DNA of 7,212 nucleotides from Hydrogenothermaceae bacterium (lineage in GTDB: Bacteria; Aquificota; Aquificae; Hydrogenothermales; Hydrogenothermaceae), in NCBI GenBank assembly GCA_026984415.1, contig JALSSE010000436.1, positions 1 through 7,212 on the forward strand, read 5' to 3'. Numbering within the stretch: the first letter of the stretch is position 1; every line of letters starts with the position of its first letter. A model generated the notes under the pieces. It was not told the DNA's origin. It did no database searches and worked only from the letters and a program-made list of their open reading frames with translations. A program made the translations under genes and the position numbers. Shown here one piece after another: positions 88 through 7,212 of the stretch.

Positions 88-1518
88 TTAGAAATTTACC
101 TTTCCTATATCGTATTTCTCCATAAGTTTATAAACTTTTGGACGGCTGACTTTTAGTAAGGTTGCCATTTTACTGACATTTCCACGGGATATAATGAATG
201 CTTTCTTTAAAAGTTCCCTCTCCAAAGCTTCAACGTGTTTGTTAAGGTCAAGTATTCCTTCTCTTAAATCTTTTGCTTCAATATTTTCAAATTTTATGTT
301 TAGGTCATTTACATCAATGTATTCTTTATCACTTAATACACACGCTCTTCTAACTACATTTATTAATTCTCTAACATTACCTGGCCATGTATAGTTTCTA
401 ATTAAGTCTAATGCACCTTCTGAAAATCCAATAATATTTTTATTAAGTTCTTCTGAATATTTTTTCAGGAAATATTTTGCAAGGATTATTACATCATCGC
501 CCCTTTCCCTTAAAGGTGGCAATTCAATAGATAATGTACTTAGTCTATAGTATAAATCCCTTCTGAATGAGCCTAATTTAACAGCTTCCTCTAAATTTAT
601 GTTAGTTGCTGATATTATTCTTACATCTGCTTTTATTGTTTCGTTTCCACCTAACCTCTGGAAAGTATAATCCTGTAAAAATCTCAATAATTTTGCCTGT
701 AAGTCATAAGGCATATCTCCAATTTCATCTAAAAATAGTGTTCCACCTGCAGCATACTCTATTCTTCCGATTTTTCTTTTATCTGCTCCTGTGAAAGCTC
801 CTTTTTCATAACCAAAAAGCTCTGCCTCTAACAGATCAGCTGGAATTGCTGCACAGTTAACTACAACAAATGGTTTGTCTGCTCTCCTGCTTCTTTCGTG
901 GATTGCCCTTGCTGTAAGTTCTTTTCCTGTTCCAGTTTCTCCTAAAATTAAGACAGGATAATCTGTTGCTGCATACCTTCTAATCAGGTTGAAAATATTT
1001 CTCATTTTTTCACTGGTTCCAACCATTTCCAGTGATTCTTCTACACAGAACCTTGTGTAGTCTTCTTTTCCTTCAACCATTTGGGAAATGAAAGTTCCTA
1101 TTCTCATTTCCTGCATTATTTTTATTACTTCTTTTTTAGAAAAGTCCAGATACATTCCACATTTTGGACATATTTCAACAATTCTATCTAAGTTATACCC
1201 ACAATAAGGACATTTTTTTGATTCAAAAATTTTATCTGTAAGGTATTTACCTACAGTTCTTGCAATAACTTCAGGGTCTTCTGTAAATTTAACAACAACA
1301 TCCTGTTTATTTTCCCTTTTTATTTCTCCGCTTAAGGATACTTCTTCACCTAAATCTATATTAACAACAACATTTCTTCCTTTTTCAAAAGAAAGTCCAG
1401 ATTTTCTTTTTGTCTTTATCGCAAAAAGGGATAAATCAATACCTTCAGCATTTACTAAATCACCATCGTACTCTATTTTCACTATTTTAGGAAAAGAGAT
1501 TCTTGGAGATATTCTCAT
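88..1518 (-). CDS. Sigma-54-dependent activator: PilZ-like + zinc ribbon + AAA+ + Fis HTH
   Basis: This 476-residue bacterial enhancer-binding protein should use ATP to open promoters held by sigma-54 RNA polymerase. Seen in order: a PilZ-like region (about 2-92) with R2xxxR6 and D28-L-S30-L-F-A33; a zinc ribbon with C103-P-Y-C106 and C117-P-K-C120; then the AAA+ module, with Walker A GETGTGK at 193-199, the sigma-54-contacting GAFTGA loop at 240-245, Walker B LFLDE at 261-265, sensor I SATN at 303-306, arginine-finger candidates R319 and R325, and sensor [10 protein letters not shown] at 378-385. A Fis-type helix-turn-helix lies at about 445-470. There is no response-receiver domain, so the input is probably a ligand at the PilZ-like or zinc domain rather than phosphorylation. 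All core motifs are intact. The ATG is preceded by a G6 Shine-Dalgarno run (complement of 1525-1530) six bases away, and in-frame stops lie just upstream. Target genes are unknown. Confidence 0.93.
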
Positions 1519-4389: not shown

Positions 4390-5669
4390 ATATCTTTTCT
4401 TATCTCTATTCCCAATTTATGTGCTTCTAAACCTTCTGCTTCAGCTATTTTTGCAGCGTACTTTCCAACCCTTTCAAATCCTTCTTTTGAAACATAAATT
4501 ACAGAACTCCTTTTTACGAAATCATAAACCCCAAGTGGAGATGAAAATCTGGCCGCCCTTCCAGTTGGTAAAACGTGGTTCGGTCCTAAAATATAATCTC
4601 CTAAAGGTTCTGTAGAATACTCACCTAAAAATATAGCCCCTGCATGTTTTATTTTATTTAATAAATCAAAAGGTGATTTTGTAAGTATTTCTAAATGTTC
4701 AGGTGCAATATAATTGGCAAGATTGCACGCCTTTTCCAAATCATCAACAATAAAAATATGACCGTAATTATTCAAAGATTTTTCTGCAATCTCTTTTCTT
4801 GAAAAATCAGGTAAAAATTTGGTGTATAGAACATCTTTTACTTCATTAGCTAATTTTTCTGAGGTGGTAACAAGTATTGAAGCAGCAAGTTCATCATGCT
4901 CAGCCTGTGAAAGTAAATCTGCCGCTGTCCATTCTGGATTAGCAGTTTCATCTGCTATTACTAAAATTTCTGATGGTCCAGCAATAGAATCAATATCAAC
5001 AGCTCCGTAAACGTTCTTTTTAGCAAGGGCAACAAAAATATTTCCAGGTCCAACTATTTTATCCACCTTTTTAATTGTTTCTGTTCCATAAGCCATTGCA
5101 GCAATAGCCTGTGCTCCACCAATCCTGTAAACTGTTTCAATCCCACATAAAAAAGCAGCGGCAAGGGTAAATTTATTAGGATTTGGAGAACACATTACTA
5201 TTTCATTGACCCCTGCAACTTCTGCTGGAATAGCATTCATAATAACTGTTGACGGGTAAGCTGCCTTTCCACCGGGAACGTAAAGCCCAGCTCTTTCTAT
5301 TGGAATTACTTTCTGACCTAAAATCATTCCATCTTCTTCTTTAAAGTAGGAGTTTTCAACCTGTCTTTCGTGGAATTCTCTAATCCTTTCAATAGCAACT
5401 TCTAAAGCCCATTTTGTGTCATCATCAATCTGGTCATAGGCTTCTTCTAATTTTTCAAAAGGAACTATTATTTCCTCTGGGGTTAAATCAACTTTATCAA
5501 ACTGTTTTGTAAATTCAATAACAGCCTCATCTCCCTTTTCTTTAACTGCCTTTATTATATTTTTTACGCTCTCTTCATACTCATCTATTTCCATTTCACT
5601 TCTTTTTATTAATTTTTGTAATTCTTCATTCTTCTCAAAAATTCTATTCCTCAAATCAACGATTTTCAT
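4386..5669 (-). CDS. hisD: Histidinol dehydrogenase
   Basis: This enzyme performs the last two steps of histidine synthesis, the NAD-dependent, zinc-requiring oxidation of L-histidinol to L-histidine, in the cytoplasm. The 427 residues match the family's usual length (about 430), with recognisable blocks throughout: GLYVPGG (128-134), RIGGAQAIAAMAYGT (182-196), KIVGPGN (204-210), DSIAGPSEILVIAD (227-240) and FSSPLGVYDF (375-384). Expected zinc ligands, by comparison with the E. coli enzyme, are Q255, H258, D358 and H417. The catalytic pair is E324-H325 in APEHLE. Nothing essential is missing. The gene stands alone rather than in a his operon, as is common in Aquificota. Its ATG has AAGAGGA (complement of 5677-5683) seven bases upstream. 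Its stop overlaps the stop of the convergent helicase gene by four bases, with no terminator between them. Confidence 0.97.
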   Translation of the reverse strand: MKIVDLRNRIFEKNEELQKLIKRSEMEIDEYEESVKNIIKAVKEKGDEAVIEFTKQFDKVDLTPEEIIVPFEKLEEAYDQIDDDTKWALEVAIERIREFHERQVENSYFKEEDGMILGQKVIPIERAGLYVPGGKAAYPSTVIMNAIPAEVAGVNEIVMCSPNPNKFTLAAAFLCGIETVYRIGGAQAIAAMAYGTETIKKVDKIVGPGNIFVALAKKNVYGAVDIDSIAGPSEILVIADETANPEWTAADLLSQAEHDELAASILVTTSEKLANEVKDVLYTKFLPDFSRKEIAEKSLNNYGHIFIVDDLEKACNLANYIAPEHLEILTKSPFDLLNKIKHAGAIFLGEYSTEPLGDYILGPNHVLPTGRAARFSSPLGVYDFVKRSSVIYVSKEGFERVGKYAAKIAEAEGLEAHKLGIEIRKDI

Positions 5670-5698
5670 TTTTACATCCTCTTGTTTTGTTTTAAATA

Positions 5699-5704
5699 AT
5701 TATA
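5699..5704 (-). promoter_or_regulatory. Candidate -10 element for hisD
   Basis: A perfect leftward TATAAT (complement of 5699-5704) would start transcription near 5692 and give a leader of about 23 bases that includes the hisD Shine-Dalgarno site. Seventeen bases upstream the -35 position reads TGATAT, a poor match to TTGACA. The site is plausible by position only. Confidence 0.35.
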
Positions 5705-5762
5705 AATGTTTTTCATAATTTATATCATTAAAATTTTCATAAAAAAGGATATTATTAATGAA

Positions 5763-5769
5763 AAGGAGG
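5763..5769 (+). promoter_or_regulatory. Strong ribosome binding site AAGGAGG that fixes the start at 5781
   Basis: AAGGAGG is a near-perfect Shine-Dalgarno sequence. It lies 11 bases before ATG 5781, a little longer than usual. The same frame is open back to an ATG at 5706, but that extension is an AT-rich Ile/Lys/Phe string with no ribosome site and would place the Shine-Dalgarno inside the gene, so it is rejected. I see no convincing promoter for this gene in 5670-5762. Confidence 0.75.
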
Positions 5770-5780
5770 TTGATATTCAG

Positions 5781-5981
5781 ATGGATTACAAACATATTAA
5801 ACATTTAACAAAAATAGAAAAACCTGATATTGAGTGTTTTAAATGCGGAAAGAAGGGAGTTCTTTATGAAGACCCAAATATTGAAGAGCTTTATTTCTGT
5901 GAAGAATGCTGGGAAGAAAGATTTAAAACAGAACTTCTTGACAGGTACGGTTATGATAATGAGCTTCCCTATGATGAATAA
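5781..5981 (+). CDS. Small zinc-ribbon-like protein with two CxxC pairs, function unknown
   Basis: The 66-residue product is acidic and has no signal peptide or membrane segment. C19-F-K-C22-G and C40-E-E-C43 are separated by 17 residues, the layout of a treble-clef or zinc-ribbon knuckle, so it probably binds one zinc (or iron) ion. The N-terminus is basic (MDYKHIKHLTK) and the C-terminus is acidic and aromatic (DRYGYDNELPYDE). I do not recognise a named family. The last 13 bases overlap the end of the convergent DUF2063 gene. The upstream neighbour hisD is divergent, so this gene is transcribed alone. A strong Shine-Dalgarno site and coherent codon use support its being real. Confidence 0.8.
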   Translation: MDYKHIKHLTKIEKPDIECFKCGKKGVLYEDPNIEELYFCEECWEERFKTELLDRYGYDNELPYDE

Positions 5982-6676
5982 TCAACAAATACTTTGTTTT
6001 CAATAAGTTCAGTAAAAAATTTTTCCAGATAAGGCATTATTTCTTCTTTTTCAATTTCTATATTTTTTTCCTGAATTGATTCGTAAGGGGTAATACCACA
6101 GGAAATCTCATCTAAAATCTGATAAACAAAGTCTGTTAACTCAACTGTTTTAATTTCAAAATCAACAGGTTCTCTGAAAATAAGAAGGTTGTATCTTCCT
6201 TTATTACCAATAATTTCTTCTATTTCTATATCTTCATATCTGTGGACTGGATATTCATATATGTTTAGCCTTGCTGTAGAATTTATACTGTACTTTTTGT
6301 TCCAGTCAAATTCTGTTAGTTTTCCTGTTTCCTTTTCATTAGACAGCTCAATTTCAAGCCATTCGTAGTATATAAGGTCGTCAATAAATGGATAATCATT
6401 TTTAAACTTCCAGTCATTTTTTATTATAAATTCAGCAAATCCTTTTGCTTCCTTCCATAAAATCTGTTCTGAATGTTGTTCTTTTATATATTCCTCAACT
6501 AAAAGCTCAAATATTTTACTTCCTAAAATCTCCCTTGTATAAGGAAAAGCGTATTCAAAAGAATCTAAAAATCTGTTAAAAACAAGCTCTTTATAAAGTT
6601 CTGCTTCTTTTGAATTTGGTGGAATTTTTCCTGTTATGCTGTTGAAAAATTCAATCTGCATATTAAACTCTTGCAT
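5969..6676 (-). CDS. DUF2063/HvfC-type partner protein of an MNIO peptide-modifying enzyme
   Basis: This 235-residue protein resembles the DUF2063 (COG3219, HvfC/BufC) family, which works with DUF692 iron oxidases and is thought to present the precursor peptide to the oxidase. The family-like N-terminal helical domain is visible: ELYKELVFNRFLDSFEYAFPYTREILG at about 26-52, then GFAEFI near 79-84, and YPFIDDLIYYEWLEIEL at 95-111. A second domain (about 130-230) includes ARLNIYEYPVHRYE. The gene follows the MNIO gene in the same direction and overlaps it by 14 bases, so the two are probably translationally coupled. ATG 6676 was chosen because GGAG (complement of 6685-6688) lies eight bases upstream. 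Alternatives are GTG 6685, with no clear ribosome site, and ATG 6661, one base after the MNIO stop. The end overlaps the convergent CxxC gene by 13 bases. The family call rests on pattern resemblance plus context. Confidence 0.8.
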   Translation of the reverse strand: MQEFNMQIEFFNSITGKIPPNSKEAELYKELVFNRFLDSFEYAFPYTREILGSKIFELLVEEYIKEQHSEQILWKEAKGFAEFIIKNDWKFKNDYPFIDDLIYYEWLEIELSNEKETGKLTEFDWNKKYSINSTARLNIYEYPVHRYEDIEIEEIIGNKGRYNLLIFREPVDFEIKTVELTDFVYQILDEISCGITPYESIQEKNIEIEKEEIMPYLEKFFTELIENKVFVDYSS

Positions 6677-7212
6677 TTTCCACACTCCATTTAACTTTTT
6701 TATACTCTTCTATCAGTTGATTGTATTCTGGAATGTTGTTGTCCCTTTCTAATAAAACAGGAACATCTCCTAATCTTTTCAAGCTAAAATCAAGCAAGTC
6801 GTAAACAGGTTCACAAACATCAGCCCCATGGGTATCAATTATAATGTCATCAAATTTGTTATGTCCTGCTATATGAATGTATTCAACTTTAGAAAGGTCT
6901 AAATCTTCTATAAAATGGTAAGGGTCATATCCGTGGTTTAAAGAATTTACATAAACATTATTTACATCTAAAAGAAGTTTGCAATTTCCTTTTTCAAGGA
7001 CAAGATTTATAAATTCAACTTCTGACATTTCTGCATCAAATGAGTAGTAGTATGAAATATTTTCTAAAATTAAAGGTCTTTCTAAATAATCCTGAATGTA
7101 TCTTGCTTTCTCTCCTATGTATTCAGCTAATTTTTCTGAAAATGGGACAGGAAGTAAATCGTAAATATAACTTCCGTTTAGTGAAGAATAGCTAAGATGC
7201 TCTGAATAAATA
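6663..7212 (-). CDS. DUF692 multinuclear non-heme iron oxidase (MNIO), C-terminal 182 residues, cut by window edge
   Basis: The fragment is the C-terminal part of a TIM-barrel MNIO (COG3220; relatives MbnB, BufB, HvfB and TglH), enzymes that use an iron cluster and O2 to modify cysteines in ribosomal peptides. Seen, numbering from the first full codon at the right edge: SEHLSYSS (3-10) with the conserved Glu-His; DLLPVPFSE (18-26); LILENIS (47-53) with a metal-ligand Glu; LLLDVNNVYVNSLNHGYDP (79-97); IHIAGH (112-117); DTHG (126-129); and LLERDNNIP (153-161). These are the family's hallmark blocks, and the expected acidic, Asn and His metal ligands are present. The frame continues past 7212, so an internal Met at 7028 is not the start. 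Roughly the first third is missing, judging by the usual length of about 280 residues. The gene is followed by its usual DUF2063 partner. The substrate is unknown, because the precursor gene would lie upstream, outside the window. Confidence 0.9.
   Translation of the reverse strand, partial: IYSEHLSYSSLNGSYIYDLLPVPFSEKLAEYIGEKARYIQDYLERPLILENISYYYSFDAEMSEVEFINLVLEKGNCKLLLDVNNVYVNSLNHGYDPYHFIEDLDLSKVEYIHIAGHNKFDDIIIDTHGADVCEPVYDLLDFSLKRLGDVPVLLERDNNIPEYNQLIEEYKKVKWSVENARV
6685..6688 (-). promoter_or_regulatory. Ribosome binding site GGAG inside the end of the MNIO gene
   Basis: GGAG (complement of 6685-6688) lies within the last codons of the MNIO gene, eight bases before ATG 6676 of the DUF2063 gene. 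Its position favours this ATG over GTG 6685 and ATG 6661 and suggests coupled translation of the pair. Confidence 0.5.

Follow-up and report, generated by a model that had tools for sequence, protein, structure and literature searches.

The window analysed here (the whole stretch of 7,212 nucleotides from contig JALSSE010000436.1 of a Hydrogenothermaceae bacterium, phylum Aquificota) ends inside the first of two overlapping reverse-strand genes, which encode an MNIO (DUF692) enzyme and its DUF2063 partner. The MNIO open reading frame (ORF; 6663..7211, reverse strand) stays open up to the window end and comprises 182 residues, the C-terminal two thirds of an HvfB-like enzyme. Comparison with P0008, a full-length cluster representative of 273 amino acids with 99% identity across these 182 residues, places about 91 N-terminal residues beyond position 7212, so that a precursor gene would be located beyond about 7485. 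The partner (5969..6676, reverse strand) is an HvfC-like protein of 235 amino acids. An earlier note on this DNA had recognized such a pair at 5969..7212, and both ORFs are as it described. Hidden Markov model searches confirm the two families: PF05114 matches the MNIO fragment at 224.7 bits (cut-off 25; E = 1.6e-66; profile positions 85-259 of 263), well above the curated cut-off for membership of the MNIO superfamily, and PF09836 matches the DUF2063 protein at 36 bits (cut-off 27.2; E = 8.4e-9). The ORF list gives the partner a GTG start at 6685, which is probably wrong; the in-frame ATG at 6676 is preferred because the homologue P0001 starts there and a GGAG, the probable ribosome-binding site within the MNIO frame (6685..6688, reverse strand), sits 9-12 bases upstream. 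With this start, the frames overlap by exactly 14 bases (6663..6676, reverse strand), the figure reported earlier, and translational coupling of the two genes is likely from this overlap.

Judged from the alignment, the metal-binding and catalytic residues of the MNIO superfamily are conserved in this enzyme. All four hallmark blocks named in the earlier note are present on the reverse strand: SEHL (7194..7205), LLLDVNNVYV (6948..6977), IHIAGH (6861..6878) and DTHG (6825..6836). In P0008 numbering, used throughout, Ser94, Glu95 and His96 of the first block, Asp173, Asn175 and Asn176 of the second and His204 and His208 of the third are invariant in the alignment of 34 MNIOs, and Asp217 and His219 of the fourth are the motif equivalents of HvfB Asp242 and His244. 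A further segment, LERDN (6738..6752, reverse strand), holds Glu246, Asp248 (equivalent to FonB-Asp249) and Asn249 (at the FonB-Phe250 site) in the same alignment. Across the 34 MNIOs, H61, H96, E141, N175, N176, H204, H208, D217, H219, E246 and D248 are invariant, and all of these except H61 fall in the window's part of the enzyme. They include the equivalents of positions that inactivate HvfB or FonB when mutated; beyond the equivalents of HvfB N175, D242 and H244, we take the remaining invariant residues to bind iron. HvfB N175, D242 and H244, which we equated by motif with the LDVNN and DTH positions of these MNIOs, are described in excerpts of the HvfB study as site-3 ligands required for activity (PMC13419390), and FonB-Asp249 is the proposed catalytic base (excerpts of PMC13097082).

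The nearest kind of system is HvfBC, with Cys-Gly-repeat precursors, rather than MbnB/MbnC or the DUF2282 bufferins; the earlier note had named MbnB/MbnC and BufB/BufC as known pairs of this type, and a close kinship to these is not supported. The known systems set beside the pair also include TglH/TglI. HvfB and HvfC are the top NCBIfam models for the pair: the MNIO fragment matches HvfB (PRK05409) best, at 4.7e-71 and with a fragment score under the cut-off, and HvfB is the top model, at 320-349 bits, in every one of the seven Aquificota-like MNIOs scanned at full length (P0008, P0010, P0011, P0025, P0041, P0054 and P0095). The solved structure scoring best for the MNIO is 3BWW. Scanned whole, P0008 stays below the cut-offs of the HvfB equivalog NF003818 (343 bits, cut-off 360), the BufB equivalog NF050167 (287.8 bits, cut-off 310) and the methanobactin MbnB model TIGR04159 (41.1 bits, cut-off 325). 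A methanobactin-like MbnB/MbnC pair making an oxazolone-thioamide for copper acquisition is disfavoured, and we consider it extremely improbable. BufB is the second-best NCBIfam model for P0008, which speaks for a maturase of DUF2282-type (Buf1) or Cys-Lys (Buf2) bufferins, built on the same partner and operon logic and acting on a four-Cys or CK-repeat precursor; BufB/BufC consist of the same two protein families, with the same kind of partner, and probably perform the same 5-thiooxazole chemistry, but the expected precursor class differs, and HvfB outscores BufB in each of the seven enzymes scanned. On this and the residue and tree evidence below, a bufferin maturase is unlikely.

In its predicted structure, the partner is a PME-type 1 protein, combining a DUF2063 helical domain (6425..6658, reverse strand; the PF09836 match, helical in the model) with a C-terminal winged-helix domain (5978..6292, reverse strand; model residues 129-233) resembling the recognition element (RRE) of ribosomally synthesized and post-translationally modified peptide (RiPP) systems. 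The predicted fold matches NGO1945 (3DEE) and also TglI and RRE structures; a match to 3JQH (C-type lectin neck repeats, E = 0.00017) was dismissed as a chance coiled-coil similarity, no stretch passing alone. The families and the RRE-bearing partner fold support the earlier view that the pair is of the RiPP-modifying kind. Besides a Cys-rich precursor in the locus and a copper-binding 5-thiooxazole product, captophorin (MNIO-PME1) clusters are marked by an MNIO adjoining a PME1 partner, the arrangement formed here by the overlapping genes at 6663-7211 and 5969-6676. HvfB/HvfC (the oxazolin maturase of Haemophilus) and FonB/FonC (the fontiphorin maturase), both of the captophorin class, likewise have an MNIO and a DUF2063-RRE partner encoded together, with metal and catalytic residues that, by motif, HvfB and FonB share with the window enzyme. 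Pairing elsewhere in relatives is indirectly supported, since for two of seven DUF2063 homologues (P0006 and P0007) an MNIO from the best 120 of 7936 (P0010 and P0011) lies on a contig of equal size (159631 and 46749 bases).

Precursors become visible beside related MNIO genes. A genome scan with 8-residue words of the window alone retrieved 20 loci at 34-55% identity, none titled as Aquificota. Flanks were inspected at 15 of these (L001-L015, 46-55% identity), and all except the truncated L011 have a Cys-Gly-repeat ORF upstream, of the KCGEGKCG or KCGAGKCG type. The gene order is precursor, MNIO and then, in most, a DUF2063-sized ORF, and in five loci (L004-L007 and L010) a DoxX-like ORF recognized by eye comes next. 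MNIOs are present in 26 of 397 genomes of the phylum of L005, whose genome is titled Sulfurimonas (the title from which we read the group name Campylobacterota), with matches in 16 of 395 genomes of the phylum of L008 (titled Desulfobulbaceae) and in 24 of 294 genomes of the class of L004 (titled Melioribacter). At L001-L004, L006, L009, L010, L013 and L015, in metagenome-assembled genomes of Flavobacteriales, Ignavibacteria and Betaproteobacteria, the KCGEGKCG-type precursor is preceded by an ECF-sigma-like ORF and by a small anti-sigma-like ORF that contains Cys, both recognized by eye and not by profile.

According to excerpts of PMC13097082, FonB-Arg16 and FonB-Phe250 face the substrate, Phe250 being typical of enzymes with Lys-Cys precursors and Asp of those with Cys-Lys precursors. 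We therefore recorded the residue at the FonB-250 site together with the number of Cys-Gly motifs in ORFs that have at least three Cys and lie up to 700 bases upstream of the MNIO. At least four motifs occur in 15 of 17 loci with Phe (L068 has two and L066 none; 14 of 16 without L070, which repeats the precursor of L010 and probably comes from one and the same genome), in 26 of 28 loci with Asn (L056 has three and L040 none) and in none of 24 loci with Asp, Glu, Ala, Gly, Ser or Thr. A further locus, L011, could not be read, and L003 and L008 have no readable Arg16 site. Dropped before the count were L021 (a plasmid stretch), L022 and L023 (DUF2063-centred, from the genomes of L005 and L007), L025, L051 and L067 (the genomes and matches of L005, L008 and L004) and L062-L064 (no match at 1e-10). 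The residue at this site in the window enzyme is Asn, not Asp, which argues against the bufferin maturase; in favour of it, the second Arg is lost, much as in Cys-Lys and DUF2282 enzymes (excerpts of PMC13097082). We also considered that Asn at the FonB-250 site combined with loss of Arg16 might signal a precursor other than KCG; this was ruled out, Asn-type loci carrying Cys-Gly repeats. L056, from the phylum of L008's genome, has Asn at the site but sits on a long branch outside the clade described below, with a precursor containing QCGSGNCGSGNCGSD, and may be an independent instance of Asn occurring together with Cys-Gly repeats that have no Lys.

The same two sites were also read in homologues. 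Among the best 120 of 7936 MNIOs, 68 have Asp-Phe at the catalytic base and the following position, 51 Asp-Asn (one without the N-terminal site) and one Asp-Thr; the Asp-Asn set includes the named members Persephonella, Hydrogenothermus and Hydrogenivirga, and in the 50 with both sites the Arg16 site is Tyr, Thr or Phe in 44, Arg in four, Ser in one and Leu in one. In P0008 itself the residues are Arg14-Phe15, which lies outside the window, and Asp248-Asn249, which lies within it. Within the same best 120, the named relatives, among them Persephonella hydrogeniphila and Hydrogenothermus marinus (P0054 and P0095), are 53-57% identical, and the closest relatives 81-87%. The named relatives support the Aquificota-like host that the earlier note had assumed and make it likely.

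The Asn at the FonB-250 site is shared with Hvf-like loci of Campylobacterota (L005, L007, L024 and others), whose MNIOs are 44-52% identical to P0008 and have Arg, Ser, Glu, Asn or Lys at the Arg16 site. As with the window pair, the proteins scanned from this group score below the HvfB and HvfC cut-offs (three MNIOs at 312-323 bits, two partners at 61-76 bits). Unlike in the window, their precursors are visible (for example KCGAGKCGG and GSCGAGKCGG); both of the two that were scanned exceed the NCBIfam HvfA repeat-domain cut-off of 19.5 bits, at 42.6 and (barely) 20.0 bits, as does P0219 of Sulfurimonas paralvinellae, annotated as HvfA family, at 40.6 bits. At L032, L034-L039 and L046, where the Arg16 site is Ser, the first Cys of each pair follows Ser or Ala and not Lys (GSCGAGKCG, GACGAGKCG); L005 and L007 also have Ser at that site, yet retain GKCGAGKCGG. 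The precursors of L027 and L028, upstream of the MNIO in the same group, start with M(N/K)KMNRRKAM, which is twin-arginine-like and not plain Sec.

Phylogeny places the Aquificota-like enzymes among those with Cys-Gly precursors. A first tree of 118 rows, which omitted P0012, L008 and two thirds of the Phe-type set, did not settle how the Asn groups branch. The second tree (79 rows, mixture model) was built with both substrate-facing columns removed and L011 and L070 left out. In it, 11 Aquificota-like rows, chosen from the best 120 of 7936 MNIOs, group together (support 93) as the sister group of 27 rows from Campylobacterota (joint support 86), and both groups lie inside a 54-row clade (support 100) otherwise made up solely of Phe- and Asn-type loci. 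The 24 loci with other residues fall outside this clade, which again speaks against a bufferin maturase. The 43 rows of the clade other than the Aquificota-like ones all have readable flanks, and in 40 of them an ORF carrying four or more Cys-Gly motifs lies upstream. For the trait scored on this tree, at least two Cys-Gly motifs counted as presence, as against four in the locus count; L016, which has two, was by choice treated as lacking it. Bracketed in this way within the Cys-Gly clade, the Aquificota-like rows lead us to predict a Cys-Gly-repeat precursor for the window. On this tree, the link between residue and precursor amounts to essentially one evolutionary contrast, so that it predicts by kinship and proves nothing, and the residue at the FonB-250 site cannot be called the cause.

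Taken together, we consider it probable that the pair is a RiPP maturase of the HvfBC/FonBC type acting on a secreted Cys-Gly-repeat precursor encoded upstream of the MNIO gene. Several observations weigh against this. The residue-precursor link rests on one independent pair. The window stops inside the MNIO gene and the locus' own precursor is unseen, and P0008 and its relatives lie under the HvfB and HvfC equivalog cut-offs (the partner homologue P0001 scores 81 bits against the HvfC equivalog NF050145, cut-off 142), points which, with the Aquificota-like host, set the pair apart from HvfBC and FonBC. It differs from FonB in having Asn at the Phe250 site and, in P0008 (outside the window), Phe at the Glu-binding Arg16 site. 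The relatives mostly have Tyr or Thr there, and Phe, Tyr or Thr occur at this site in no Asn- or Phe-type locus with both a readable site and a precursor (R, K, S, E and N are found instead), so that the exact motif or core flanks may differ. A precursor search with the Campylobacterota family gave none traceable to contigs of the window's own clade (best 120 of 2038 precursors, E <= 1). By eye in this set, no precursor coincides in contig size with the window's closest relatives; P0156 coincides with P0070 (3773 bases, a Phe-type MNIO), and P0172 with P0108 (1049 bases), from different sources and probably by chance. Finally, two loci of the 54-row clade, L040 (one of the 27 from Campylobacterota) and the Phe-type L066, have no upstream precursor within 700 bases. 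These two would also fit a substrate that is encoded away from the MNIO pair, its precursor being an orphan at another place in the genome, or that is a larger protein; excerpts of PMC12452194 report that sizeable shares of Buf1 and Buf2 precursors are unlinked to MNIO genes and that MNIOs may modify whole proteins. With a Cys-Gly-repeat ORF immediately upstream in 40 of 43 readable loci of the clade, we regard such a substrate as improbable here. The earlier note had placed the precursor to the right of 7212; most related loci have theirs immediately before the MNIO gene, on its upstream side, and by analogy it is likely to lie there in this genome too.

Relatives and published systems suggest how an HvfBC/FonBC-type maturase would work at this locus. 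The RRE domain of the partner would hold the leader of a secreted Cys-Gly-repeat precursor whose gene would adjoin the MNIO gene on its upstream side, to the right of 7212. The mixed-valent iron cluster of the MNIO, with O2, would oxidize each Cys in the repeats and close it with the amide before it into a 5-thiooxazole. Export of the modified peptide would be by Sec, and it may buffer stress by binding copper or a different thiophilic metal. In excerpts of PMC13097082, all characterized MNIO-PME1 cases install 5-thiooxazole and the products bind copper; the suggestion in the earlier note that the chemistry could be new is thus unsupported, because characterized MNIO-PME1 pairs make 5-thiooxazole. 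It is conceivable, though doubtful, that the Aquificota-like enzymes constitute a specificity class of their own, acting on a Cys-Gly core whose register or flank differs from that of EGKCG. Their product would then be a multi-thiooxazole metallophore that withstands heat and is suited to the metals of hydrothermal settings. This suggestion stems from the Phe, Tyr or Thr that replaces the Glu-binding Arg and the Asn that replaces Phe beside the catalytic base.

Elsewhere in the window (G+C 28-34%), none of the 52 ORFs of at least 25 amino acids is precursor-like: of five short ORFs with at least three Cys, four are antisense and one is zinc-ribbon-like. At its stop, the DUF2063 gene shares 13 bases with the end of a convergent ORF of 65 codons (5784-5981, forward strand), which has an AGGAGG site and encodes a small CxxC...CxxC zinc-ribbon-like protein with no Pfam or NCBIfam match and, by eye, no signal-peptide-like start, and which is no candidate for the precursor. 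The stretch from 5400 to 7212 yielded no terminator-like site. Further away lie a sigma-54 activator with an unusual N-terminal part (88-1518, reverse strand), showing weak matches to PilZ (20.9 bits, cut-off 22.5) and a zinc ribbon (24.2 bits, cut-off 27) and no receiver domain among its Pfam matches, and an MrfA-like DEAD/DEAH helicase with a C-terminal MZB zinc-binding domain (PF09369; 1945-4389, forward strand), beside a 67-amino-acid ORF with no family match (1700-1903).

Beyond bacterial chromosomes, viral contigs gave no relative with either the DUF2063 query or the Aquificota MNIO alignment, nor did phage records, and 353 plasmid records hold a relative, every one below 60% identity. 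The open-licence PMC literature yielded no paper joining MNIO or DUF692 with Aquific*, and the term is absent from the main text of two MNIO landscape papers; this probable maturase pair, of a widespread bacterial kind, is apparently unreported for Aquificota. The residue after the catalytic Asp provides a cheap sequence rule: in the loci surveyed, Phe or Asn there marks those with Cys-Gly precursors, and different residues mark the rest. Thermophilic pairs would be useful for structure work on the MNIO, its partner and the precursor. If the proposed function holds, thiooxazole-metallophore (captophorin) systems would extend to a phylum that is probably an early-branching, thermophilic one.
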